From an uncultured Pelagibacteraceae bacterium (lineage in GTDB: Bacteria; Pseudomonadota; Alphaproteobacteria; Pelagibacterales; Pelagibacteraceae): a stretch of DNA of 45,025 bases. This document shows, in pieces, positions 19,117 through 40,108 of this stretch (position 1 is the first letter of the stretch; each line of letters begins with the position of its first letter). The stretch covers positions 1-45,025 of the forward strand of contig CACPCD010000005.1 of assembly GCA_902632315.1 (NCBI GenBank). The letters run 5' to 3'. The notes below the pieces were generated by a model that was given only the letters and a program-made list of their open reading frames with translations, searched no databases and had not been told where the DNA came from. The translations under genes and the position numbers were made by a program.

Positions 19117-20598
19117 TTAACCCATTGTAAAAGGATCTGACATGGGTTTATCAGAAGAATTATACCATGTTGTTTTTATTCTTGTATACTCTTTGATTGA
19201 TTCAATCCCAGCCTCTTTGCCATAACCACTATCTTTTATTCCCCCAAAGGGTGCCATTGGAGAAATTAATCTATAAGTATTTATAAATACAATACCTGCT
19301 CTGATAGCTTTTGAAACTCTAATTCCCCTAGCAAAGTTTGAGGTATAAACTCCTGATGATAGACCATATTTGTTATCATTCATTTTTTTTATTACCTCAT
19401 CCTCTTTTTCAAATTTCATAACTGATAAAATTGGTCCAAATAACTCATTTTCTGCAACTGGCAAATTATGGTTTTTACATTCAATAATAGTTGCTGGAAA
19501 ATAATAACCTTTATTTGAAACTGAGGATCTTTTACCCCCACACCTGAGCTTTCCGCCTTGTTCAATAGTTGATTTAATATTTTTTTCTATGTTCTCAAGT
19601 TGTTTAAAACTATTTAGAGGCCCCATTTGAGTATCTTTTTCCATTGGCCCACCAAGTTTTATTTTTTCAGCTTTATCAATTAATTTTTTTAAAAATTGAT
19701 CATAAATTTTAGAATGAAGATATAATCTTGATCCTGCAATACAACTCTGTCCGCTTGCACCAAAGATTCCAGCAGTAATTCCATTTAGAGCATTTTCTTG
19801 ATCTGCATCATCAAAAACCACAACAGGACTTTTGCCGCCAAGCTCCAAACTAACTTGAGATAAATTTTCAGAGGAGTTTTTTACTATATGTCTTGCAGTC
19901 TCTGGCCCACCAGTAAAAGCAATCCTTTCCACAAGTTTGTGGGTCGTAAGAGCTTTACCGCAGGGTTCACCCAATCCAGTAATTATATTAATTACACCTT
20001 TCGGTATCCCAGTTTTTTCTATAAGTTTTCCAAATTCTAAAAGGGTGACTGGAGCAAGCTCTGATGCTTTGATTACAACTGTATTTCCCATAGCTAGAGC
20101 AGGTGCCAACTTTACTGCTGTTAAAAGCATTTGTGAATTCCAAGGAATTATTGCAGCTACAACTCCTATCGGAATTCTAGTTGTTGTAACTTGCATATCT
20201 GGTTTATCAATCGGCACAACAGTTCCTTCAACCTTATCTGCTAATCCTGCAAAATAATCATAATATTCAGCAATGTAGTTTGCTTGAGTTTTAGTTTCTC
20301 GATAAAGTTTTCCAGTATCTATTGTTTCAATTTTTCCAAGATGCTCTGCATTTGCTCTAAGCTGTTCTCCAATTAATTTTAAATATTGTGCTCTTTCTCT
20401 CGGATGTAATTTTGACCAATTATTTTCAAATGCACTTTGTGCAGACTGAACAGCTTTATCAACATCAGCTTCATTGGCCTCAGGAACTGTTGCCCATACT
20501 TCGTTATTTTCAGGATTTAATGATTCAATTTTTTTACCAGAGGATGAATCTACCCATTCACCATTAATATACATTTTAAAATCTTGAATTTTCGTCAT
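19117..20598 (-). CDS. NAD(P)-dependent aldehyde dehydrogenase (last gene of flavin-monooxygenase operon)
   Basis: Oxidises an aldehyde to a carboxylic acid in the cytosol. The 493 residues hold all ALDH signatures: IPWNSQ (about 151-156) with Asn154, FTGGPETA for the cofactor, the general base Glu252 in LELGGKSP and the catalytic Cys286 in GQSCIAGS. The C-terminus ends DPFTMG. It is the last gene of a gapless operon with a hydrolase, a PF06684 protein and a luciferase-like monooxygenase. This mirrors the set of activities in the trigonelline pathway of Acinetobacter (TgnB monooxygenase, TgnC ALDH, TgnD hydrolase). The aldehyde here is probably made by the upstream enzymes. Family is certain, substrate unknown. 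Confidence 0.93.
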   Translation of the reverse strand: MTKIQDFKMYINGEWVDSSSGKKIESLNPENNEVWATVPEANEADVDKAVQSAQSAFENNWSKLHPRERAQYLKLIGEQLRANAEHLGKIETIDTGKLYRETKTQANYIAEYYDYFAGLADKVEGTVVPIDKPDMQVTTTRIPIGVVAAIIPWNSQMLLTAVKLAPALAMGNTVVIKASELAPVTLLEFGKLIEKTGIPKGVINIITGLGEPCGKALTTHKLVERIAFTGGPETARHIVKNSSENLSQVSLELGGKSPVVVFDDADQENALNGITAGIFGASGQSCIAGSRLYLHSKIYDQFLKKLIDKAEKIKLGGPMEKDTQMGPLNSFKQLENIEKNIKSTIEQGGKLRCGGKRSSVSNKGYYFPATIIECKNHNLPVAENELFGPILSVMKFEKEDEVIKKMNDNKYGLSSGVYTSNFARGIRVSKAIRAGIVFINTYRLISPMAPFGGIKDSGYGKEAGIESIKEYTRIKTTWYNSSDKPMSDPFTMG

Positions 20599-21381
20599 CT
20601 AATTATTAATAAAATTTTTAATGTTCATATTAACATCATCTACACATTCTATACTACAAAGATGTTTTCCATTCTGAATTTCAATATAAGTAGAATTAAC
20701 AAGGTCTTTGACTAGTTCTTTAGACATTGCTGGAGTAGAGCCAACATCATCTGAGCCAGTCATTACTAAAGTTTTTATGTTTATTCTTTTTATGGCTTCA
20801 AAATCGTCATAATGATTAGCAAATAATTCATATGCTTTAAGAAAGTTTTTATGATCCTTTGGATCTTTGTTTAAGATCCTCATAAACAAATCATAAGTTT
20901 TTGGATTTTCTTTAAGATATTCGTCACTAAACCATCTTTTTAATGCTTGTTTAGATAAAGGCTTATTCAATTTTGCTTGATTATATCTGTCTAATACAAC
21001 AGATCTTTCTTCATCAGATCTTTTATAAGTTGTACCGATTAAAATGAGTTTATCCACTTTTTTTTGAAAATGAGAAGTAAAATTTAAAGCAATTAAAGAT
21101 CCTAAAGAAAAACCTATTAGATTGATTTTCTCTATTTCTAAATGTTCTAAAAGTTCTATAAGTTGATTAGAAAAATCTCTTAGACTGAGTTTATCTTTAT
21201 TACACGGTGTTTTTCCATGACCTAATAAATCATAAGTTAAAGTCGAAAATTCTTTGAAATAATCAACTTGTTTATTCCACATTTGATGGTCAAGACCAAC
21301 ACCGTGAATAAATACAAGTGGTACTGAATCTTTTTTATTTAAAAAATAATGATTTTGATTTGGATCAAAATTTTTAGACAT
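20599..21381 (-). CDS. Alpha/beta hydrolase of the monooxygenase operon
   Basis: A 260-residue cytosolic hydrolase of the 3-oxoadipate enol-lactonase/RutD-like type. The catalytic triad is visible: nucleophile Ser92 in GFSLGS, an acid at Asp211 or Asp212 (TGSDDVGS) and His240 (GKHLCSIE). The oxyanion-hole loop is FIHGVGLDHQMW (24-35), with the following YDLLGHGKT strand. No signal peptide is present. Its stop directly precedes the ALDH start with no gap, and three bases separate it from the PF06684 gene, so it belongs to the same pathway. It probably hydrolyses an ester, lactone or amide formed by ring opening; this is inference from context. Confidence 0.9.
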   Translation of the reverse strand: MSKNFDPNQNHYFLNKKDSVPLVFIHGVGLDHQMWNKQVDYFKEFSTLTYDLLGHGKTPCNKDKLSLRDFSNQLIELLEHLEIEKINLIGFSLGSLIALNFTSHFQKKVDKLILIGTTYKRSDEERSVVLDRYNQAKLNKPLSKQALKRWFSDEYLKENPKTYDLFMRILNKDPKDHKNFLKAYELFANHYDDFEAIKRINIKTLVMTGSDDVGSTPAMSKELVKDLVNSTYIEIQNGKHLCSIECVDDVNMNIKNFINN

Positions 21382-21384
21382 TTA

Positions 21385-21972
21385 TTACTTTGGATCTAAG
21401 CCCATTTCTTTCATGTCTTGATAACGATCCCCAGTTCTAGCATGTGCTCTACCACTTGAAGCTCCCCCAATCGCAATTACAATTTCATCATCAAATGGTG
21501 CATCATGAATAGTAAACTCGTGAGTAAGATAATAGGGTCTTAATCCAGAGTCTGTTTTATGCATCATTGGTATAGAAATTTTAGAACCTGCTGGTCCTCT
21601 TGTATTAGTAAAACTTAAATAAGAAGTACCACCAACAGCATCTCTAAATTTATTTCCAAATCTTAAAGTATGAATAAAGGCTGAGGCATGTTCTATTTCA
21701 CCGTTTAAACCTACAGTACCAGCTTTACCATAAGCTAAAATTTTTTCAGGCGATCCAATTTCTTTCACTAATTCTGGTACCAATATGTCACCAAGTTTTG
21801 GTGCTAAATCTAAAATTACTGGTTTTAAATCTTCAACAAATCCCTGTCCTGCCCAAGGGTTCTTAAAAACAGCTGCTACCGAAACCATTAAAACTGGTTC
21901 CTTAGCTTCCTTTCCACCCTCAATAAAAGTTTTATCTACAAATTTTGTAAACTTCCTCAATTTAAGTTTCAC
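21385..21972 (-). CDS. PF06684 (DUF1185, 'amino acid synthesis') family protein
   Basis: A 195-residue protein covering the full PF06684 domain. Recognisable segments are VAAVFKNPWAGQGFVEDLKP (about 32-51), ILAYGKAGTVGLNGEIEHASA (about 94-114) and the C-terminal IAIGGASSGRAHARTGDRY. Structures of family members show a variant of the Bacillus chorismate mutase fold; the reaction is not established. No signal peptide. The first base of its ATG is the last base of the LLM monooxygenase stop codon, and only three bases separate it from the hydrolase. It is therefore a core component of the four-gene unit, possibly a cyclase or amide-processing enzyme. Confidence 0.85.
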   Translation of the reverse strand: MKLKLRKFTKFVDKTFIEGGKEAKEPVLMVSVAAVFKNPWAGQGFVEDLKPVILDLAPKLGDILVPELVKEIGSPEKILAYGKAGTVGLNGEIEHASAFIHTLRFGNKFRDAVGGTSYLSFTNTRGPAGSKISIPMMHKTDSGLRPYYLTHEFTIHDAPFDDEIVIAIGGASSGRAHARTGDRYQDMKEMGLDPK

Positions 21973-23138
21973 TAACTTGCTTTCTCTATATCGTCGTTAT
22001 TAAAATTAATTTTGGGTATCACTTCATCATTAAACAGCTTAATACTTCTCATGCAGGCCTTGTGATCAATTCCTGGAAAGTTTGACCAAACTTGTAAGTT
22101 TTGTAGGTTTAATTCTGATTTTAATTCATTAATTTTATTAACCACATATTCAGGTGTACCAAATAATAAATTTCTTTTATGTAAGAAATCATAATTTAAA
22201 AGATCTAATTTATGTTTTGTCTCGGGCAATTCTTCACCTGGATCCATATGATTTCCCAAACCTCTCCAATGACAAACCCATCGCATATAATTTATTATGT
22301 GTTCACCAGCTAATTTTTCTGCCTCTTCCATAGTTTCAGCAACAAACATGTCTCTAACTAAAGAGATACCCTCTCCCAATGGTACATCTCTATCTTCGGC
22401 TTTTGATTTTGCATCCCTGTAGATTTCAAATCTTTTCTTTAAAGCTTTCACAGTAGGTATCCACATTATAGTATTTAAACCATTTTGAGCTGCCCATTCA
22501 ATTGATCTTGCTCCATCTACTACTTGCCAAATTGGAGGATGTGGACTTTGTTTAGGTTTTGGAACTACACTAATTTTTTTAATTTCATTTGTTTTTGTAT
22601 CTAAAAATTCTTTACTTGGAGGACTCATATCATGTTGCCATACAAAATTTGGTGAAGGATATGTATAAAATTCTCCCTTGTGGCTAAAAAATTTTTCAGT
22701 CCAAGCTTTTTTCATTATTGTTAATGTTTCATCAAATAATCTAAAGTTTTTGGCTTGATCTTTAAGGTCAGCTTCTTTATTCATATTTATAGCTTCACGT
22801 CCATAAATCCCTCTACCAATTCCAACTTCAACTCTTCCATTTGATAATTGATCTAACAAAGCAATGTCTTCTGCTAATCTTATTGGGTTATGGAAAGTAA
22901 TAACATTACAAGCTTGTCCTATTCTTATTTGTTTAGTTCTCGCAGCTGCATCGACACCCATCATTATCGGGTTAGTGCAAGACTCCATTCCTTCATGATT
23001 AAAGTGATGTTCAGTATACCAAATAGAGTCCCAATTATTTTTATCACAATAAGTAGTGATCTCTTTGGTTTCGTCTAGTAATTGCTGATATGGTTTATGA
23101 TCCCAGTTCGTGGTATTGCAAAAGTAACCAAATTTCAT
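21972..23138 (-). CDS. LLM-class (bacterial luciferase-like) flavin-dependent oxidoreductase
   Basis: A 388-residue TIM-barrel flavoprotein of the luciferase-like monooxygenase family, which uses reduced flavin supplied by a separate reductase. Seen: WDSIWYTEHHFN (about 36-47), IRIGQACNVITFHNPIRLAEDIALLDQLSNGRVEVGIGRG (72-111, the family core), and SPHPPIWQV (about 196). It is the first gene of the four-gene minus-strand operon and has an unusually good Shine-Dalgarno (AAGGAGG) for this genome. No flavin reductase is in the window, so the partner must be encoded elsewhere. Ring-cleaving or N-dealkylating oxidation of a nitrogenous substrate fits the neighbours, but the substrate is not known. 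Confidence 0.92.
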   Translation of the reverse strand: MKFGYFCNTTNWDHKPYQQLLDETKEITTYCDKNNWDSIWYTEHHFNHEGMESCTNPIMMGVDAAARTKQIRIGQACNVITFHNPIRLAEDIALLDQLSNGRVEVGIGRGIYGREAINMNKEADLKDQAKNFRLFDETLTIMKKAWTEKFFSHKGEFYTYPSPNFVWQHDMSPPSKEFLDTKTNEIKKISVVPKPKQSPHPPIWQVVDGARSIEWAAQNGLNTIMWIPTVKALKKRFEIYRDAKSKAEDRDVPLGEGISLVRDMFVAETMEEAEKLAGEHIINYMRWVCHWRGLGNHMDPGEELPETKHKLDLLNYDFLHKRNLLFGTPEYVVNKINELKSELNLQNLQVWSNFPGIDHKACMRSIKLFNDEVIPKINFNNDDIEKAS

Positions 23139-23278: not shown

Positions 23279-24022
23279 ATGAAATTGACTAAGATAGAAC
23301 CAAAATATTTAAAAAAGCATAATCCTAGGATAGGGTTAATAACATTAGCTAGTGATTTTAGAATCGAAAAAGATTTTAATAATGTAATTTATGGTAAGGA
23401 TATAGATTTATACTGCAATAGAATAAAATGTTATAATCCTTTAACTAATGAAACCCTAAAAAAAATGGCAGATGATATCCCGAAAGTTACTGAGGATATA
23501 TTACCAGATCAAAATTTAGATTGTGTAGCTTATGGATGTACTTCAGGTACAATTGCTGCAGGGTATCAATCAATTCATGAGAAAGTTAATTTAGCAAAAC
23601 CAAATACAAAAGTTACGACACCAATAACATCAGCAATAAATGCACTGAAAAGTTTAAAAATAAAAAGATTGTCAATTTTTACCCCTTATACGGACGAAAT
23701 AAATCAATCAGTAATTAATTATTTTAAAAAAGAAAATATAGAAATTGATGAACTTTCTTATTTTGATATAGCCTCAGATTTAGATATTGGTAAAGTTGAT
23801 CCACAACATGTGTTTGATACTCTTACAAAAATAGATTTATCTAAGAGTGACGCTTTATTTGTTTCTTGCACAGCTTTGCCTGTAATGTCAATAATTGACG
23901 AATTAGAAAAAAAATTAAACAAAATAATTTTATCAAGTAATCAAACTTTGATTTGGGATACTCTAAAGGAAATCAATTACAAAAATAAAGTTGAAGGTTT
24001 TGGTCAACTATTTAATAATTAA
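23279..24022 (+). CDS. Asp/Glu racemase superfamily protein (EutA / arylmalonate decarboxylase / maleate isomerase-like)
   Basis: A 247-residue two-domain protein of the cofactor-independent Asp/Glu racemase superfamily. The two catalytic cysteines lie in the expected places: Cys87 in VAYGCTSGTIAAG and Cys197 in LFVSCTALPV. The N-terminal GLITLASDFRIEKDF also resembles the arylmalonate decarboxylase/EutA group. The next gene is DoeA-like, and EutA and DoeA/EutD sit together in ectoine-use clusters, so EutA is the closest guess. Maleate isomerase is another option, and would suit a ring-cleavage pathway. It faces the LLM oxidoreductase operon, is three bases from the M24 gene, and has no clear Shine-Dalgarno. 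Confidence 0.82.
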   Translation: MKLTKIEPKYLKKHNPRIGLITLASDFRIEKDFNNVIYGKDIDLYCNRIKCYNPLTNETLKKMADDIPKVTEDILPDQNLDCVAYGCTSGTIAAGYQSIHEKVNLAKPNTKVTTPITSAINALKSLKIKRLSIFTPYTDEINQSVINYFKKENIEIDELSYFDIASDLDIGKVDPQHVFDTLTKIDLSKSDALFVSCTALPVMSIIDELEKKLNKIILSSNQTLIWDTLKEINYKNKVEGFGQLFNN

Positions 24023-24025
24023 ACT

Positions 24026-25195
24026 ATGAATTTTACTAATGAGGAATACAAATCAAGATTAAAAAAAGTTCAATCTTCAATGCAGAAAAAAGGTATTGAA
24101 CTTTTAATATCACAAGACCCATCTAACATGAATTATTTGACTGGTTATGATGCTTGGTCATTTTATTATGCTCAATGTGTAATAGTACATATTAATTCTG
24201 ATGAGCCGATTTGTTTCGTTAGAAATCAAGATGCTGGTGGAGCGTATATAAAAACTTATTTGAAGGATGAAAATATAATCAAATATCATGAAAAATATAT
24301 TCATACTTGGCCACTACATCCTTATGATGCACTTGTAGATCTTATTAAAGAAAGAAAGTGGGATAAACTTTCTATAGGACTAGAAATGGATAGCCATTAT
24401 TTCACAGCTTATTGCTATGAAAAAATTAAGCAAGGTCTGCCTAACGCTAAAGTTTTAGATTGTGAAAGATTAGTCAATTGGGTGAGAGTTGTTAAATCAG
24501 ATACAGAAATAAAATTTATGAAAGCAGCAGCTCAAATTACTGAACTAGGAATGAAGAAAGCATTTGAAGTTATCAAACCAGGAGTAAGACAATGTGATGC
24601 TGTTTCAGAAATTTACACTACATTAATTAAAGGAACACCCGAATTTGGTGGGGACTATTCATCCATAGTTCCAATGATACCGACAGGAAAAGGCACCTCA
24701 GCTTCACATTTAACATGGTCTGAAGATAAATTTGTAAGGGGAGAAGCTACAATTATAGAATTATCAGGAGTAAATAAAAAATATCATTGTCCTATGGCTA
24801 GAACAGTTTTACTTGGTAAACCTGATCAAAAAAAAATTGATACTATGAAAAAAACAAATGAAGCTCTTCAAGCTGGTATTGATCTAGTTAAAGCTGGAAA
24901 TACCGCCGATGATGTTGCTCAAGCTTTTTGGAAAATTTTAGATAAATATGGAATAGAAAAAACTTCAAGAACTGGATATTCTATTGGCATTGGTTATCCA
25001 CCAGACTGGGGAGAACACACTTTAAATATATCAAAAGGGGACATGACAGTATTACAACCTAATGTTACTTTTCACATGATTGCAGTTATGCAATTTGGAA
25101 ATTGGGGAGTAGAGGCTTCTGAGGCAATCAGAGTTACAGATAAAGGATCTGAATTATTTTGTAATTTTTCCAAAGAACTTCATATTAAAAGCTAG
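24026..25195 (+). CDS. doeA: M24 (creatinase/Xaa-Pro) family hydrolase, DoeA (ectoine hydrolase)-like
   Basis: A 389-residue pita-bread-fold enzyme. It matches ectoine hydrolase DoeA/EutD along its length as I recall that family: DPSNMNYLTGYDAWSFY (about 31-47), LVNWVRVVKSDTEI, GGDYSSIVPMIPTGK, HLTWSEDKFVRGE, KKYHCPMARTVLLG, GYSIGIGYPPDWGEHTL and WGVEASEAIRV near the end. DoeA opens the ectoine ring to N-acetyl-diaminobutyrate. The rest of the known pathway (DoeB deacetylase, the EutB/EutC pair) is not in the window, so this copy could act on a related cyclic or amidine substrate. It is cotranscribed with the racemase-superfamily gene and precedes the ABC transporter. Confidence 0.75.
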   Translation: MNFTNEEYKSRLKKVQSSMQKKGIELLISQDPSNMNYLTGYDAWSFYYAQCVIVHINSDEPICFVRNQDAGGAYIKTYLKDENIIKYHEKYIHTWPLHPYDALVDLIKERKWDKLSIGLEMDSHYFTAYCYEKIKQGLPNAKVLDCERLVNWVRVVKSDTEIKFMKAAAQITELGMKKAFEVIKPGVRQCDAVSEIYTTLIKGTPEFGGDYSSIVPMIPTGKGTSASHLTWSEDKFVRGEATIIELSGVNKKYHCPMARTVLLGKPDQKKIDTMKKTNEALQAGIDLVKAGNTADDVAQAFWKILDKYGIEKTSRTGYSIGIGYPPDWGEHTLNISKGDMTVLQPNVTFHMIAVMQFGNWGVEASEAIRVTDKGSELFCNFSKELHIKS

Positions 25196-33372: not shown

Positions 33373-34347
33373 GTGATACAGTTTCCTGTGAAAAAAAAAA
33401 GAAATAAAGATCCAATCCAACCTATAAGTGGAACTGTAGTACCTAGATTTGCTGGCCCATCTACATTTGCTAGATTGCCAGAGTTAAGAGATGTAGAGAG
33501 TTGTGATGTTGCAATAGTCGGAATTCCTTTTGATGCAGGTACAAGTTATAGGCCAGGTGCAAGATTTGGCCCCCAAAGTATTAGACAAGCCTCTAGACAT
33601 TTAAGAACAAACTATCATCCGAATTATGATGTTGAGCCTTTTAAAGTTCAGCAGGTTGCTGATGCAGGAGATATTACATGTAATCCATTTAATATAGACG
33701 AAGCAATAAAACAAATAGAGCAAGGTGCTATTGAATTATTAAATAAAACTGGAGGAATAATAAGTTTAGGGGGTGATCACACAATTGCATTCCCCTTATT
33801 GAAAGCAGTCAATAAAATAAATAATGGACCAGTTGCACTCGTACATTTTGATGCTCATTTAGATACTTGGGATACGTATTTTGGTGCACCTTATACGCAT
33901 GGCACACCTTTTAGACGTGCAAGAGAAGAGAATCTTTTTTTAGATGATGCCTCTATGCATGTTGGTATCAGAGGACCTCTTTACAGCAGAAATGATTTAA
34001 AAAATGATGAAAGTTTTGGTTTTAAAATAATTCATTGTGATGAATTCCAATCCCAAGGAACTGAAAAGATAGTTGATAGAATAAGAAAAAGAGTAGGTGA
34101 TAACCCTCTATATCTATCTATTGATATAGATGTATTAGACCCAGCATTTGCACCAGGTACAGGTACTCCTGAGATAGCTGGAATGACTTCGAGAGAAATG
34201 GTTAATGTGATAAGAGGTTTATCAGGAATGAATTTAATTTCCGCAGATGTTGTGGAAGTTTCACCAGCGTATGATCACGCTGAAGTAACTTCGCTTGCCG
34301 CTGCAACTATTGTTTACGAATTAACTAATTTGTTTGCAAAAAAGTAA
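33373..34347 (+). CDS. Agmatinase-family ureohydrolase
   Basis: Hydrolyses a guanidino compound to an amine and urea, using a dinuclear metal centre. The metal ligands are all present: His136 in GGDHT, Asp160, His162 and Asp164 in FDAHLDT, and Asp251 and Asp253 in SIDIDVLDPAFAPGTGTPE. The 324 residues and the N-terminal PRFAGPSTFARLP resemble agmatinases and guanidinobutyrase/guanidinopropionase enzymes more than arginase. Agmatine, guanidinobutyrate, guanidinopropionate or guanidine are possible substrates. The start is a GTG (33373), with a second in-frame GTG at 33388. An aldehyde dehydrogenase and an NCS1 permease follow, so it probably belongs to a nitrogen-scavenging unit. Confidence 0.88.
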   Translation: MIQFPVKKKRNKDPIQPISGTVVPRFAGPSTFARLPELRDVESCDVAIVGIPFDAGTSYRPGARFGPQSIRQASRHLRTNYHPNYDVEPFKVQQVADAGDITCNPFNIDEAIKQIEQGAIELLNKTGGIISLGGDHTIAFPLLKAVNKINNGPVALVHFDAHLDTWDTYFGAPYTHGTPFRRAREENLFLDDASMHVGIRGPLYSRNDLKNDESFGFKIIHCDEFQSQGTEKIVDRIRKRVGDNPLYLSIDIDVLDPAFAPGTGTPEIAGMTSREMVNVIRGLSGMNLISADVVEVSPAYDHAEVTSLAAATIVYELTNLFAKK

Positions 34348-34367
34348 AGAAAGTATAATTTTTTGTG

Positions 34368-35804
34368 ATGGAAAATAAAAAAAAATTTTATATCAATGGA
34401 CAGTGGGTTGATCCAAAAAGCAAAGAAATAATTAATGTAGTAAATCCAGCCACAGAGGAAAATTGTGCAGTAATCTCTTTAGGAAACCAGGATGATGTTA
34501 ATGAAGCAGTTAGTGCCGCTAAGAAAGCCTATAGCACATGGGCATTTTCAACAAAAGATGAAAGAGTAAAATTATTAGAAAAACTTTATGAAAATTATAA
34601 AAAAAGATGGGCTGATATCGCAGATGCAATCACTACTGAGATGGGTGCACCAAAGGATTTTGCAACAAAACTTCAGGCAGGAACAGGTGCTGCACATTTA
34701 AAGTCTTTTATAAGATATCTTAAAAATTTTGAATTTGAGAAACCATTAGGAGATCATGCTCCAAATCAAAGACTAATTTATGAGCCAAAAGGAATTTGTG
34801 CATTAATTACTCCATGGAATTGGCCAATGAATCAAGTTTGTTTAAAGGTTATGCCAGCAATAGCATCTGGATGTACAATGGTATTAAAACCTTCAGAGCT
34901 TGCTCCTTTGTCTTCAATAATTTTAGCTGAACTTATTGATGAAACAAAGTTTCCAGCTGGTGTTTTTAATTTAGTTAATGGAGACGGTGCTACTACTGGA
35001 GATGCTTTAACAAGCCATCCCGATATTAATATGATCTCATTTACTGGCTCAACTAGAGCTGGAGCTTTAATTTCACAAAATGCTGCCAAAGATTTTAAAA
35101 GAGTAAGCTTAGAATTAGGTGGTAAAGGTGCTAATATAATCTTTAAAGATGCTGATCCAGATGCGATAGAAAGAGGAGCATTGAGATGTTTTAGAAACTC
35201 AGGTCAATCTTGTAACGCACCAACAAGAATGCTTGTTGAAAAGTCTATGTATAGCGAGGCAATTGAAAGACTAAAAAAATATACAGAAAACTTTGAAGTT
35301 GGTGATCCTAAAAAAGAGGGAGAGCATATTGGCCCAGTAATTTCAGAAACTCAATACAACAAAATACAAACTTTAATTAAAAAAGGTATGGATGAGGGAG
35401 CAAAATTAGTTGCGGGTGGTCCTGGAAAGCCTGAAGGTTTAGAAAAAGGTTATTTTGTTAAGCCAACAGTTTTTGCAGATGTGAATAATGACATGGAAAT
35501 TGCACGTACAGAAATATTTGGACCTGTTTTGTCTGTAATGCCTTTTGATTCCGAAGAGGAAGCAATTAAAATTGCTAATGATACTCCTTATGGTTTAACA
35601 AATTACATTCAAACGCAAGATAAAGAAAAAGTTAAAAGAGTTGCAAGAAAGTTAAGATCAGGAATGGTAGATGTTAATGGAGCAGGTATTGCTGTTGATG
35701 CACCATTTGGTGGTTTCAAACATTCTGGTATAGGTCGAGAAGCTGGCGAACATGGTCTTGAGGAGTTCTTAGAAGTCAAATCAGTAGGTGGCTGGAATAA
35801 TTAA
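34368..35804 (+). CDS. Aldehyde dehydrogenase (ureohydrolase-linked)
   Basis: A second aldehyde dehydrogenase of about 478 residues, distinct from the one at 19117. Asn151 in TPWNWP, Glu249 in LELGGKG and catalytic Cys282 in GQSCNAP are present, with FTGSTRAG for NAD binding and PFGGFKHSGIGREAG near the end. The ATG at 34368 is preferred over the GTG three bases earlier. It lies 20 bp after the ureohydrolase. In polyamine or guanidino-acid breakdown, a ureohydrolase, a transaminase and an ALDH act in sequence, so aminobutyraldehyde-like substrates are plausible; no transaminase is nearby. Family certain, substrate unknown. Confidence 0.92.
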   Translation: MENKKKFYINGQWVDPKSKEIINVVNPATEENCAVISLGNQDDVNEAVSAAKKAYSTWAFSTKDERVKLLEKLYENYKKRWADIADAITTEMGAPKDFATKLQAGTGAAHLKSFIRYLKNFEFEKPLGDHAPNQRLIYEPKGICALITPWNWPMNQVCLKVMPAIASGCTMVLKPSELAPLSSIILAELIDETKFPAGVFNLVNGDGATTGDALTSHPDINMISFTGSTRAGALISQNAAKDFKRVSLELGGKGANIIFKDADPDAIERGALRCFRNSGQSCNAPTRMLVEKSMYSEAIERLKKYTENFEVGDPKKEGEHIGPVISETQYNKIQTLIKKGMDEGAKLVAGGPGKPEGLEKGYFVKPTVFADVNNDMEIARTEIFGPVLSVMPFDSEEEAIKIANDTPYGLTNYIQTQDKEKVKRVARKLRSGMVDVNGAGIAVDAPFGGFKHSGIGREAGEHGLEEFLEVKSVGGWNN

Positions 35805-35991
35805 GTGCGAATATTCAGATATGTTCATTTTAGGTCATGCTTAAATAGTTAGTGATAATATTAAGTTCTAGCTCCCCGTAAAAAAAATATTAATTTGTAT
35901 TTACTTATTAAATAGTTAGTTTTCTCCAAGAGACACATAATGTTGCAATGTTTTTTTTAGTTATGACTTGTAACGAATATAGGAGGAAAAA
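35805..35991 (+). promoter_or_regulatory. 187-bp leader with 13-bp direct repeats upstream of the NCS1 permease
   Basis: The longest intergenic stretch in the window. TTAAATAGTTAGT is repeated exactly at 35841-35853 and 35908-35920, a 67-bp period. Between them lies CTAGCTCCCCG, the only GC-rich patch, next to an A-run. A strong AGGAGG Shine-Dalgarno is at 35981-35986. I could not match it to a known purine, guanidine or other riboswitch. It could hold operators or an unrecognised RNA element. Confidence 0.45.
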
Positions 35992-37446
35992 ATGAGTAGA
36001 TCAAAATCGCTCTACAATGCAGATTTAGCACCAACTCCAACAAATAAAAAAAATTGGGGATGGTTCGAAATCTTTAACGTATGGGCAAATGATGTTCAAA
36101 GTTTATTTGGATATACTTTGGCAGCATCATTATTTATAGCCTCAGGGTTAAATGGTTGGGCAGTATTTTTAGCTTTAATACTTGCTGGCTTTTTTATCAT
36201 GTGGTTAGTAAACCTATCAGGTAAACCAAGTGTTAAACATGGTATTCCTTATCCAGTATTTGCCCGAGTAAGTATGGGTGTATTTGGTGCAAACTTTCCT
36301 GCGATGGCAAGAGGGCTTGTAGCTATGTTCTGGTATGGAGCACAAACTTATGCAGCATCAACTGCCGTTGCACTTCTAATTTCAGCTGTTACTGGCAATC
36401 CTGGTTCAGAGATGTTTTTAGGGATGACAGGAGTGATGTGGGTATCATTTATCTTTGTATCATTATTCCAAGTTTACTTATTCTGGCAAGGTATAGATCT
36501 TGTAAAAAAATTCTTAAACTTTGCAGGACCAGCAGTTTATGTTGTGATGGTTCTATTGATGCTAGTAATTTGGTTTAAAGCTGGAGGAAGCCTTTTATCA
36601 GAAGTTGGTGAAATATTTTCTGGTGGAACACGTTCAGGTGGATTTGAAGGTTTAGGTACATTTGGTGCGTTCCTAGCAGTATTTTCAATTATGGTTGGAT
36701 ATTTTGCTGCTGTAGTAATTAACTTCGGTGACTTTGCTAGATTTGTTAAAAATGAAGATGAGATGAAAAAAGGTAACTTATGGGGACTAGTAGGCAACGT
36801 AGTTTTCTTCTCATTCATTACTTTAATGATTACTGGTGGAACGATTGCTATCTTTGGAGAGTATGTAGCAAGTCCGACAGATATGGTAGCTAAAGTAGAT
36901 AATATTGTATTAACTATTGTTGCAGCATTTGCATTTTTTGCAGCAACAGTTGGTATTAATATGGTGGCTAATTTTATACCACCTGCTTATGACCTTGCAA
37001 ACTTAATGCCAAGCAAAATTAATTTTAGAATTGGTGGTTTAATAACTGCTGGTTTTGGTTTTGTTATTGGTGGTATGTGGGTTGCAGTAATCACTCAAAT
37101 GGGAATGTTTCCATTTGTAAACACTTTAGGTGCAATTTTAGCTCCTGTGTTTGGTATAATGATTACTGACTATTATATAATCAAAAAACAAAGATTAGAT
37201 GTTGATGACTTGTTCAGTAACTCACCTAATGGCAAATATCATTACAACGGAGGTTTTAATGGTAAAGGAATGTTAGCTTGGGCGCTATCAGGATACATTG
37301 CTGTTGGTACTGTTTGGCCAAACATCTTATTCTTAGGATTGGATGATTTCTTTGCCAACTTAGGTGGTGGAGGAGGATATGCTTGGATAATTGGAGCAGC
37401 ATTAGGTGCTTTAATTCACTTAGCAATATCATCATCTAGAAAATAA
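35992..37446 (+). CDS. NCS1-family permease (purine/allantoin/cytosine type)
   Basis: A 484-residue inner-membrane transporter with about twelve hydrophobic segments, of the nucleobase:cation symporter-1 family (Mhp1, PucI, cytosine permeases). Seen: NVWANDVQSLFGYTLAASLF in the first helix region, GIPYPVFARVSMGVFGANFPAMARGLVAMFWYGAQTY (about 84-120), a hallmark of the family, and VINFGDFARF (about 241). NCS1 substrates include allantoin, hydantoins, uracil, cytosine and purines. It faces the allantoin-degradation operon across a bidirectional terminator, so allantoin or a purine is the most reasonable guess. A strong Shine-Dalgarno suggests high expression. Confidence 0.92.
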   Translation: MSRSKSLYNADLAPTPTNKKNWGWFEIFNVWANDVQSLFGYTLAASLFIASGLNGWAVFLALILAGFFIMWLVNLSGKPSVKHGIPYPVFARVSMGVFGANFPAMARGLVAMFWYGAQTYAASTAVALLISAVTGNPGSEMFLGMTGVMWVSFIFVSLFQVYLFWQGIDLVKKFLNFAGPAVYVVMVLLMLVIWFKAGGSLLSEVGEIFSGGTRSGGFEGLGTFGAFLAVFSIMVGYFAAVVINFGDFARFVKNEDEMKKGNLWGLVGNVVFFSFITLMITGGTIAIFGEYVASPTDMVAKVDNIVLTIVAAFAFFAATVGINMVANFIPPAYDLANLMPSKINFRIGGLITAGFGFVIGGMWVAVITQMGMFPFVNTLGAILAPVFGIMITDYYIIKKQRLDVDDLFSNSPNGKYHYNGGFNGKGMLAWALSGYIAVGTVWPNILFLGLDDFFANLGGGGGYAWIIGAALGALIHLAISSSRK

Positions 37447-37460
37447 ATAAGTTTTAAATT

Positions 37461-37497
37461 AAAGCCCATCAATTTTAATTGATGGGCTTTTTTTTAT
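37461..37497. terminator. Bidirectional terminator between the NCS1 permease and allA
   Basis: A perfect 14-bp inverted repeat (37461-37474 with 37477-37490; AAAGCCCATCAATT on the left arm) followed by TTTTTTT on the plus strand. The minus strand has a weaker T-rich tail, so it probably serves both convergent genes. Confidence 0.88.
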
Positions 37498-37499
37498 AA

Positions 37500-37997
37500 T
37501 TAAAATTCTAAAGTAATATTTTCTTTGTTTAGATCATGAAGAACTAAATTTTCTCCATCACCCAATCTGTCTACAACTAAAAAATTCATATCTTCAGTTG
37601 AGATTAATGGAAAATGCCAAATACCTGGATTATAATTTATTCCAATTCCTTTCGGTATTATGAAGGACTCAATTTTATTTATGTCTGGTTTGTCTCCCTC
37701 AGGAGCAACAAAAGCTAAAAAAGTAGTTTCTTTCATTGGAATAAATGCTTGGCTTCCAAGTGGATGCTTTTCCATCATATCAATCTTCATTGGAAAGGAT
37801 CTTTTTAGAGCTGAAAAAATACTAATAGTAGACTCGCCATTATCTTTTTTAGTATTTAAATTTGCAATACCATCATATCTTTTTGCATAACCATTATTAA
37901 TTTCAATTGGCTTGATGTCTGCAGTTGTTATCATATCCCCAAATTTTTTGAAATTTTCTTTAGTTATTGGTTTAGGTTTAAATATAAAATTTTTCAT
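37500..37997 (-). CDS. allA: Ureidoglycolate lyase
   Basis: Splits ureidoglycolate to glyoxylate and urea, the final step of allantoin breakdown. A 165-residue cupin-fold protein. Seen: KPITKENFKKFGDMI at the start, SIFSALKRSFPMKIDMMEKHPLGSQAFIPM (about 59-88) and GIGINYNPGIWHFPLI (about 117-132), which correspond to the conserved core of the AllA family. It is the last gene of the minus-strand operon after the allantoinase, allantoicase and a small membrane protein. Ends in the shared terminator with the NCS1 permease. Ureidoglycolate amidohydrolase would be a different, M20-type protein. Confidence 0.92.
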   Translation of the reverse strand: MKNFIFKPKPITKENFKKFGDMITTADIKPIEINNGYAKRYDGIANLNTKKDNGESTISIFSALKRSFPMKIDMMEKHPLGSQAFIPMKETTFLAFVAPEGDKPDINKIESFIIPKGIGINYNPGIWHFPLISTEDMNFLVVDRLGDGENLVLHDLNKENITLEF

Positions 37998-38023
37998 ATT
38001 TTATTATTTTCTATCACTAGGCG

Positions 38024-38227
38024 CTACTTACACATTCTTCTAGCGCGCATTGCTGCCCTTGCCTCGGAATTACCTTTCTTTATATAATCTTTATAAACTT
38101 TTTTATAACAATGATCTTTTGAGGAACTATAATTGTCATTAAAAGTTACAAAAATAATCGTGGCAATAATAATTGACCCACCAATTATTAGTTCCTTCAT
38201 ATGTTTATTAAAAAAGTCTTTATTCAT
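38024..38227 (-). CDS. Small single-pass membrane protein within the allantoin operon
   Basis: I do not recognise this 67-residue protein. It has one hydrophobic segment (about 12-29) after a short charged N-terminus, then a soluble tail with Cys40 and Cys66, which could form a disulfide if the tail is periplasmic. The tail is basic and helical (EARAAMRARRMC). Its start overlaps the allantoicase stop (ATGA, 4 bp), and 26 bp separate it from allA, so it is translated as part of the operon. Coding is supported by this coupling and by the clear membrane-plus-tail design; function is unknown. Confidence 0.65.
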   Translation of the reverse strand: MNKDFFNKHMKELIIGGSIIIATIIFVTFNDNYSSSKDHCYKKVYKDYIKKGNSEARAAMRARRMCK

Positions 38228-39207
38228 ATTTTTTTTCCAAAAATTCTAAATCTTGAAATACCACCGTCAGGAAAAATATTAATTTTTATATGATTAATTT
38301 TATTTTTTTTCATTAAAGAATTTTTAAATATATGAGTTTTATTAGCCGATAATTTTGTGTTCTTTAATAAATACTTCCATTTACCTGAAGAATTTACAAT
38401 TTGTTTGGAACTTTTAGGTGGTAAGTATGTAGCTTGTAATGAACAATAGCTGGGATAATTTCCTTTAAAATGATGAGTTGAAATTTCAATTTTATCAATA
38501 GAGTTTCCATCAATAGAATTTAGAATTAGCCAGTCATTTCCTTTACCCCTTCTTCTTCTGGTTTCCCAACCATCACCCATATTTTTTGCTTTGCCAGGAG
38601 CTAGAATATTTTCAGCTTTTCCGAAGTGCTCATTATTGCAAGCGATTACTGATGCCCCATCTAGTAATGAGGCAAGATTTATCTTTTTATTTTTGAATTT
38701 TTTTGATTTTGCAATTGATCCATATAATCTTAATCTAGCAACACCACCATCAGGAAAAATGTTAAATTTAATATGTGTAAATACTTTATTATTTTTGACT
38801 GAAAAAAAATGATGTGAATTAGCTTTAACCTTTTTTTTTGAAAGAATTGAAGTCCATTTAAATTGTTTGATATTATTTGTTTTAGAACTCGCTCCCTCAA
38901 TTGAGACCATTGAAGGTTGGTTACCATTAAAATGAGATGTATCTACATCAATCTTAGAAATTTTTCCTGGTTTACCCAATTTTAAAATAATGTAATCATG
39001 TCCAGAAGTTCTTTTTCTTCTAGACTCCCATCCATCCATCCATTTTCCATGTTTATCAAATACACCATCTTTGAACACGGGAATAGTTGGACTAATAATT
39101 CTATTAGCAGATGCAAAGAAATCGTCAGTTTTATAAATAACTTTGGTACCCAATCTTGGTTGAGCTAAATCAATCAATCCGTTAGTAAATATTATTTTTT
39201 CTTTCAT
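38224..39207 (-). CDS. alc: Allantoicase
   Basis: Hydrolyses allantoate to ureidoglycolate and urea. The 327 residues form two homologous jelly-roll repeats, as expected. The first has ISPTIPVF, DGWESRRKRTSGHDYIILKLG and DVDTSHFNGNQPSMVSIEGA (about 38-125). The second repeats the pattern with ILAPGKAKNMGDGWETRRRRGKG and ISTHHFKGNYPSYCSL (about 200-260). The closing INIFPDGGISRFRIFG also has a counterpart in the first half. It is one base downstream of the allantoinase gene and overlaps the small membrane protein gene. Together with PuuE and AllA it completes the route from allantoin to glyoxylate. Confidence 0.95.
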   Translation of the reverse strand: MKEKIIFTNGLIDLAQPRLGTKVIYKTDDFFASANRIISPTIPVFKDGVFDKHGKWMDGWESRRKRTSGHDYIILKLGKPGKISKIDVDTSHFNGNQPSMVSIEGASSKTNNIKQFKWTSILSKKKVKANSHHFFSVKNNKVFTHIKFNIFPDGGVARLRLYGSIAKSKKFKNKKINLASLLDGASVIACNNEHFGKAENILAPGKAKNMGDGWETRRRRGKGNDWLILNSIDGNSIDKIEISTHHFKGNYPSYCSLQATYLPPKSSKQIVNSSGKWKYLLKNTKLSANKTHIFKNSLMKKNKINHIKINIFPDGGISRFRIFGKKI

Positions 39208-39208
39208 G

Positions 39209-40108
39209 TTATGAGTAATTCTTAATCCAATGCTTAGCTATATCAATTCTTTTACAAATCCATACATCCTCAAATTTAAGAACATAGTCTAAAAATTTCT
39301 TTAACGACTGGATTCTACCAGGCCTACCTATTAATCTACAATGCAATCCAACTGACATCATTTTAGGATTTGTCTCTCCCTCTTCATATAAAGCATCAAA
39401 GCTATCTTTTAAATAATTATAAAAATGATCTCCAGTATTAAATCCTTGATTTGTAGCAAACCTCATATCATTATTGTCTAAAGTATATGGAATGATGAGT
39501 TGTTTTTTTTTATTCCTGTATACCCAATATGGCAAGTCATCACTATAGCTGTCACTATCATATAAAAAACCACCATCATCAAAAACTAAATCCCTAGTGT
39601 TTGGACTACATCGACCCGTGTACCAGCCCAATGGTCTTGAACCAAAAATTTCCTTAATTATCTTAATTGCTTGAGACATATGTTTTTTCTCAACTGATTT
39701 TTTAACATTTTGGTAATCAATCCACCTGTAACCATGAGCTGCTATTTCATAATCTCCATTTCTAATAGCTTCACAAACCTCAGGATTTTGTTTTAAAGCA
39801 AGACCAACTCCAAAAATTGTTATTGGTATTTTTTTTTCCTTAAATAATTTATCCAATCTCCAGAAACCTGCCTTAGATCCATACTCATAGATACTCTCCA
39901 TACTAATATGTCTTCCTTTGATTGCCTTAGCACCTATAATTTCAGATAAAAATGTCTCAGAATATTTATCACCGTTAAGAACACAATTTTCACCACCTTC
40001 TTCATAATTCAAAACAATTTGAAGTGCTAAACGAGCATTATTAGGCCAAGAAATTTTTTTTCCTTTTGCTCCATAACCTATAAGGTCTCTAGAATTTTTT
40101 TTTGGCAT
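39209..40108 (-). CDS. puuE: Allantoinase, PuuE (polysaccharide-deacetylase fold) type
   Basis: Opens the hydantoin ring of allantoin to give allantoate. The protein is a 299-residue NodB/polysaccharide-deacetylase homologue of the PuuE kind, unrelated to the metal-dependent amidohydrolase AllB. Seen: RDLIGYGAKGKKISWPNNARLALQIVLNYEEGGE (about 5-38), ESIYEYGSKAGFWRL (about 67-81), DYEIAAHGYRWIDYQ and GWYTGRCSPNTRDLV (about 162-176). The PuuE enzyme of Pseudomonas is described as metal-independent. The full uric-acid branch (PuuD, uricase, OHCU decarboxylase) is not in the window, so allantoin could be imported or produced elsewhere. First gene of the allantoin operon, 38 bp after the deacetylase. 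Confidence 0.94.
   Translation of the reverse strand: MPKKNSRDLIGYGAKGKKISWPNNARLALQIVLNYEEGGENCVLNGDKYSETFLSEIIGAKAIKGRHISMESIYEYGSKAGFWRLDKLFKEKKIPITIFGVGLALKQNPEVCEAIRNGDYEIAAHGYRWIDYQNVKKSVEKKHMSQAIKIIKEIFGSRPLGWYTGRCSPNTRDLVFDDGGFLYDSDSYSDDLPYWVYRNKKKQLIIPYTLDNNDMRFATNQGFNTGDHFYNYLKDSFDALYEEGETNPKMMSVGLHCRLIGRPGRIQSLKKFLDYVLKFEDVWICKRIDIAKHWIKNYS

Follow-up and report, generated by a model that had tools for sequence, protein, structure and literature searches.

The 45,025-nucleotide stretch analysed here (the window; positions 1 to 45,025 of contig CACPCD010000005.1, assembly GCA_902632315.1, an uncultured Pelagibacteraceae bacterium) carries four adjoining genes, for a luciferase-like flavin monooxygenase (LLM), a protein of family PF06684, an alpha/beta hydrolase and an aldehyde dehydrogenase (ALDH). 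With moderate confidence we read these as the SAR11 variant of a ring-opening catabolic module of the trigonelline (tgn) type, working with a different oxygenase and with the PF06684 protein placed at the semialdehyde end of the route. PF06684, hydrolase and TgnC-type ALDH make up the lower part of the module, which is retained, while the oxygenase differs from lineage to lineage. The computed support consists of the homology of the PF06684 protein and the ALDH to tgn proteins, the conserved company of the genes, an oxygenase that is not TgnB, and a search for a PF01613 flavin reductase in a sample of the genus that found none. The features concerned are as follows.

21972..23138, minus strand: LLM, 388 amino acids, of a subfamily apart from TgnB (Pfam Bac_luciferase, 154.9 bits).
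21972..21972, minus strand: 1-nt stop/start overlap of the LLM and PF06684 genes (TAGTG), the last base of the TAG stop being the first base of the GTG.
21385..21972, minus strand: PF06684 (DUF1185, AA_synth) protein of TgnF type, 195 amino acids, GTG start (Pfam 218.5 bits against a gathering score of 27).
20599..21381, minus strand: alpha/beta hydrolase, 260 amino acids, TgnD-like by position (Pfam Abhydrolase_1, 84.7 bits).
19117..20598, minus strand: ALDH of TgnC type, 493 amino acids (Pfam Aldedh, 543 bits).

The genes run in the order LLM, PF06684, hydrolase, ALDH, with junctions of -1, 3 (bases 21382-21384) and 0 nt; both the four families and these spacings had been given in the initial annotation, and the coordinates and Pfam matches bear them out. 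The hydrolase has the nucleophile motif GxSxG (Ser92 in GFSLG), and it shares the Ser, Asp and His columns and an RWF motif with all the others in an alignment of seven hydrolases (7/7). The Glu and Cys motifs of the ALDH are both present. The nearest named relatives of the window genes are Pelagibacteraceae and Pelagibacterales records.

Degradation of trigonelline, which occurs in plants and algae, is said to depend in Acinetobacter on a cluster, tgnABCDEF, reportedly described by Perchat in 2018. By that account an LLM opens the ring and TgnC oxidises the product, a hydrolase is said to release methylamine, formate, CO2 and succinate semialdehyde, and a succinate-semialdehyde dehydrogenase (SSADH), reportedly helped by a conserved hypothetical protein, finishes the route. 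On the plasmid of Acinetobacter sp. PK01 (NZ_CP094644.1) the annotated order is PF06684 (as 'amino acid synthesis family protein'), alpha/beta hydrolase, tgnA, tgnB, tgnC, permease, hypothetical protein and SSADH, and a plasmid of Leisingera methylohalidivorans has the first five of these families in the same order. The window shares with the Acinetobacter cluster a PF06684 protein, the adjacent alpha/beta hydrolase, a TgnC-type ALDH and an oxygenase of the LLM class. Its PF06684 protein, of TgnF type and beside the hydrolase, is 55.5% identical to the PK01 counterpart, and its ALDH is 50.6% identical to PK01 TgnC, compared with 33% to PK01 SSADH. In the ALDH tree, where the outgroup branches are long, the window groups within the cluster ALDHs (99/97); its neighbours come from three other alphaproteobacterial clusters (96/93), and two of these clusters have a thiamine pyrophosphate (TPP) enzyme gene. 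The window differs from the tgn cluster in its gene order, in an LLM from another clade, and in having neither a tgnA-type flavin reductase beside the LLM nor an SSADH (TgnE) beside the four genes; an SSADH-like gene lies elsewhere in the genome, 39% identical to PK01 SSADH.

The company kept by PF06684 outside SAR11 carries much of the argument. A class-wide search found the family in 64 of 289 genomes, 63 of them over the cut-off; 78 stretches were taken, of which 77 were scored (L093 was left out, and the weak or partial places G085 and G104 were not included). Scored with the SAR11 PF06684 profile, these loci split cleanly: 18 reach at least 213 bits, and 59 score no more than 105. Within 6 kb of the PF06684 gene, the group to which the window belongs has the hydrolase in 16/18 loci, the TgnC-type ALDH in 12/18, the LLM in 11/18 and a flavin reductase in 9/18, and the hydrolase is the very next gene in 14/18. 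The corresponding counts in the other group are 0/59, 0/59, 0/59 and 1/59. A phylum-wide search (E<=1e-30) returned the same gap in scores, with 34 places, the window included, scoring at least 283 bits and all others no more than 166; for 20 of those 34 loci the genes within seven open reading frames (ORFs) include an LLM in 16, the hydrolase in 19 and the TgnC-type ALDH in 19. Three loci of the phylum sample (L153, L156 and L157) keep PF06684, hydrolase and ALDH with no LLM detected. The association is thus real, is confined to one PF06684 group, and has the hydrolase as its most constant partner. Co-occurrence with the LLM, ALDH and hydrolase families, the check proposed in the initial annotation, holds well outside SAR11 and is not a peculiarity of this lineage; the functional link it had proposed for PF06684 in this operon is supported, and the association holds for the window's group only (0/59 in the other). 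The tree of group A, to which the window's PF06684 protein belongs, was built from that group only and midpoint-rooted; it places the window with SAR11 and L085 (86/85).

Some loci of both groups have other neighbours. Group-A PF06684 lies next to the hydrolase and a 3-hydroxyacyl-CoA-dehydrogenase-like gene at L177, and next to the hydrolase, with a BCCT betaine transporter about 3 kb off, at L250; no LLM was detected at either, and from these two it appears that other pathways may use the PF06684-hydrolase pair. No common oxygenase was found among the neighbours (TctC, BCCT, MatE, 3HCDH) of some PF06684 loci without an LLM. In the second group a close pair of PF06684 genes was seen in 11/59 loci (L047, L048, L058, L069, L105 and others), and several of its loci lie near ORFs of about 915 codons, ie a different system.

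Within SAR11 the four genes stay together. A genome scan kept 80 loci among at least 575 confirmed relatives; 57 of the 80 were of SAR11 type by score, and 23 were named non-SAR11 loci. The listed SAR11-type loci have the hydrolase in 57/57, the ALDH in 55/57 and the LLM in 52/57. In the five without an LLM the PF06684 gene lies some 1.5 kb or less from where the stretch ends; some of the examined stretches end near that gene, and the absence of a neighbour there is weak evidence. In the genome of origin and 40 relatives, PF06684 was found in 14/41 and the LLM in 12/41; all 12 are among the 14, and the two with PF06684 but no LLM have the PF06684 gene at or near a contig end. All 12 LLM-positive genomes also have PF06684, hydrolase and ALDH alongside, in differing surroundings, although in one of them (G006) the cluster is split over two contigs, at contig ends. 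A HAAT-type binding protein accompanies 46/57 and a TPP enzyme 28/57 of the listed SAR11-type loci; neither is beside the window's own cluster. The best model for the SAR11 TPP enzyme is sulfoacetaldehyde acetyltransferase (415 of 620 bits), acetolactate synthase models being also among the nearest, and all the models shown were below their cut-offs. The enzyme was seen in SAR11 loci, L028:8633-10333 among them, and also outside SAR11 in some alphaproteobacteria (L117, L118 and L160, 879-885 bits to the SAR11 profile). In one SAR11 relative among those listed, a gene resembling an S-adenosylmethionine methyltransferase (L028:10334-10963) stands between the TPP enzyme and PF06684.

It is this constancy in changing surroundings, and not the spacing of the genes, that is the signal of weight. 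The initial annotation had taken the tight junctions to imply fixed stoichiometry or consecutive steps, an inference that is weak, because similar gaps are common among the window's other same-strand pairs. Neighbouring pairs on the same strand lie -11 to +5 nt apart in 19/31 cases in the window (median gap 3), and in 16/28 when the three junctions of the cluster are set aside; these counts rest on mechanically assigned start codons. Such ordinary spacing would suit the explanation that the four genes are neighbours merely through the compactness of SAR11 genomes and share no pathway. We give that explanation hardly any weight, since all four families recur together in the 12 LLM-positive genomes with differing surroundings and co-occur in other, distant bacteria.

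The variable element is the oxygenase, and different LLM clades were found with the same partner genes. The window LLM, for which the predicted model was poor (predicted local distance difference test score, pLDDT, 60.5), is 30% identical to annotated TgnB over 41% of the length and does not belong to the TgnB clade. In the LLM tree, in which one outgroup branch is very long, it belongs to a clade (94/94) with LLMs from SAR11 and the order that contains it, from Acidimicrobiaceae and from one further alphaproteobacterium, well away from the 25 rows on the TgnB side; identity to the LLM of L085 is 56%. Plasmid records gave 326 matches to TgnB-type LLM (E<=1e-60) and 331 to window-like PF06684 (E<=1e-40), with nearly equal genus counts. 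The window LLM itself had 8 plasmid records at E<=1e-30, all below 34% identity, and in the one examined, a Sulfitobacter plasmid, no PF06684 was annotated near the match.

These data bear on whether SAR11 might possess the complete trigonelline pathway, with the same substrate, an LLM of a different clade in place of TgnB, and reduced flavin from some other reductase. The lower-pathway genes do match TgnC- and TgnF-type proteins, and trigonelline has been measured in marine particles, at 1-300 pM according to the part of PMC8269262 available. The window LLM is however far from TgnB, and the near-equal plasmid genus counts suggest that a mobile TgnB was available; that it was nevertheless replaced would suggest another substrate, and we consider the complete pathway decidedly unlikely. 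It is instead probable that the cluster serves a compound related to trigonelline. Homarine is an isomer which, in the same partial source, is reported to be more abundant in marine particles (PMC8269262), although a published correction, also available in part, lowers those homarine values; the accessible text of PMC13390433 has Mgd taking part in homarine catabolism.

For the trigonelline-type module we prefer, the steps can be set out as follows. The LLM would attack a small, probably nitrogen-containing ring or a quaternary nitrogen compound, using reduced flavin that would come from an unlinked reductase. The TgnC-type ALDH would then oxidise the resulting aldehyde or hydroxylactone, and the alpha/beta hydrolase would split the enamide so formed, with release of a semialdehyde. 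The PF06684 protein, as the counterpart of TgnF, would help this semialdehyde to be made, or handed on, in a form usable by a dehydrogenase. Inferred in this scheme are the class of substrate, the sequence of the steps, which is taken from trigonelline catabolism, the exact task of PF06684 and the flavin supply. By homology, the ALDH would act before the hydrolase and the PF06684 protein would help after it, the reverse of the order in the initial annotation.

That annotation had placed PF06684 between monooxygenase and hydrolase, converting the LLM product before the hydrolase acts. The 1-nt overlap of the LLM and PF06684 genes in the window speaks for it, as does the same -1 nt overlap in 18 of the 27 listed SAR11-type loci where the two touch. 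Direct contact varies, however: the LLM lies immediately before PF06684 in 27/57 of those loci, and in 28/57 the gene that precedes PF06684 is that of the TPP enzyme; PF06684, hydrolase and ALDH remain while the oxygenase is swapped, as they do in the three loci without a detected LLM; and the effect reported for TgnF is on semialdehyde oxidation (PMC7913881, seen in part). The intermediate step is thus probably wrong, and we rate it improbable to a high degree. A position at the hydrolase and semialdehyde end is more likely, and a role after the hydrolase fits the way in which PF06684 stays with the hydrolase when the LLM changes, when a TPP gene intervenes or when no LLM is found. The initial annotation also held that the family has no proven reaction and that this operon offers a way to one. 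In the available portion of PMC7913881, however, TgnF, a homologue of HcdD, is already reported to stimulate TgnE-dependent oxidation of succinate semialdehyde; for HcdD itself the effect was not shown.

A bolder version, which we regard as a minority possibility, is that SAR11 has a hitherto undescribed pathway that opens the ring of an abundant marine nitrogen compound, with an LLM outside the TgnB clade and a reductase other than PF01613, in which PF06684 would be an enzyme in its own right. It might be a tautomerase or decarboxylase that makes the semialdehyde from the enol or formyl acid released by the hydrolase. Such an activity would explain both the apparent 'stimulation' of the dehydrogenase and the frequent travel of PF06684 with the hydrolase.

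A different proposal is that the LLM is a Baeyer-Villiger-type enzyme, or one cleaving sulfonates or another C-X bond, that no N-heterocycle is involved, and that the lower genes of tgn type were taken on to process an ester, lactone or aldehyde. LLM enzymes include 3,6-diketocamphane 1,6-monooxygenase (4uwm), to which the window LLM scores 62 bits, and the SAR11 TPP enzyme is, as given above, closest to a sulfoacetaldehyde acetyltransferase model, though below its cut-off. The 4uwm match is of superfamily level only, with bacterial luciferase chains scoring higher, and the ALDH and PF06684 proteins are close to the TgnC and TgnF types, proteins which act on ring-opened N-methylpyridinium intermediates. 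This proposal is unlikely.

Several observations weigh against the trigonelline-type module. Identity of the window hydrolase to its PK01 counterpart is only 27% (over 97%), and the PK01 cluster has nothing corresponding to the TPP enzyme seen in many SAR11 clusters. The LLM determines the substrate, and as that of the window is not a TgnB, the chemistry of the first step may differ. A PF01613 flavin reductase was absent from all 25 genomes sampled in the genus (0/25), most of them incomplete, the window's own being 82.6% complete and one being a complete single contig; the family is present in 15/16 genomes of another family in the order and in 13/14 control genomes. An SSADH-like gene (38-41% to PK01 SSADH) occurs in 8/9 genomes tested, the window's own included, and also in cluster-negative ones, so that there is no sign of linkage. 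The methylamine-use marker TIGR03105 was over its cut-off in 8/12 LLM-positive and 19/29 LLM-negative genomes. In the 23 listed named non-SAR11 loci the association is looser, with the hydrolase within 6 kb in 17, the ALDH in 12, a flavin reductase in 10 and the LLM in 8, although gene calling in high-GC DNA may have missed some neighbours. Finally, in the part of PMC7913881 available, no effect of HcdD on semialdehyde oxidation could be shown in the coumarin pathway.

Two candidate additions to the pathway were discarded. A methylamine link through TIGR03105 was rejected for want of association with the cluster. No linked flavin reductase was found; proteins of PF03358 are general, being present in 9/9 genomes including the cluster-negative G215 and G291, but could supply reduced flavin all the same.

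Comparison with other systems places the cluster further. The hcdDEFG coumarin operon of Pseudomonas mandelii 7HK4 likewise contains a PF06684 protein, HcdD, which its authors liken to TgnF, and it differs in its named partners, an alcohol dehydrogenase, a cupin and an FMN reductase (PMC7913881, from the text available). The Rut uracil pathway, in which RutA is an LLM and RutD a hydrolase, likewise pairs an LLM with an alpha/beta hydrolase. To our knowledge it has no PF06684 protein or TgnC-type ALDH, and against the RutD model the window hydrolase scores only 76 bits, compared with a cut-off of 238.5.

The AlphaFold model of the window PF06684 protein (pLDDT 86, predicted template-modelling score 0.83) is predicted to have the bacterial chorismate mutase-like fold, as the initial annotation had expected from solved structures. 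It superimposes on 3byq with Z 24.2 (2.5 Å over 182 residues, 29% identity) and on 2qtp with Z 20.8 (1.4 Å over 146 residues, 36% identity), and no other structure matched above Z 7. Matches to Rid/YjgF, PurM and OmpA-like structures (Z 5-7) were set aside as being at the level of a common arrangement. These two structures, BB2672 (3byq) and SPO0826 (2qtp), have the same fold as the window protein and are assigned no reaction in the part of PMC2954203 available, where a conserved cluster of histidines is described near a cavity at the dimer interface of PF06684 proteins. The histidines noted there have counterparts in the window protein, in which His95, His101 and His177 are conserved across four aligned proteins.

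Other genes of the window may be mentioned briefly. Divergent from the cluster, on the plus strand at 23279-25195, are a EutA-like and a EutD/DoeA-like gene, which fall short of the ectoine cut-offs (189 of 318 and 477 of 613 bits, respectively); the EutD-like gene adjoins genes resembling, by inspection, a polyamine-type ABC transporter. They were rejected as pathway members, EutD being a core neighbour found in 37/41 genomes with or without the cluster. At 33373-40108 there is an agmatinase-family gene over its cut-off, with an ALDH and an NCS1 permease that do not reach theirs, and this set is followed by genes that, judged by their translations, resemble those of allantoin degradation.

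The presence of PF06684 in a tgn-type cluster is already known. As far as the literature searched shows, two things are new. One is the form that the cluster takes in SAR11, where the oxygenase is another one, the search for a PF01613 reductase gave nothing and roughly half of the listed copies include a TPP enzyme; the other is the clean division of PF06684 in the class sample into a tgn-type group and the rest. No description of this SAR11 cluster turned up in the literature, as judged from titles and the openings of abstracts, with subscription journals thinly covered. The function of PF06684 is narrowed, in that one group accompanies a hydrolase and a TgnC-type dehydrogenase and the other does not. 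Few cells in the sea are as common as SAR11 bacteria, and the small molecules they consume matter for the marine carbon and nitrogen cycle. The cluster, found in many SAR11 genomes, points to the use of a trigonelline-related compound, a use easily missed because the PF06684 gene is labelled 'amino acid synthesis'.

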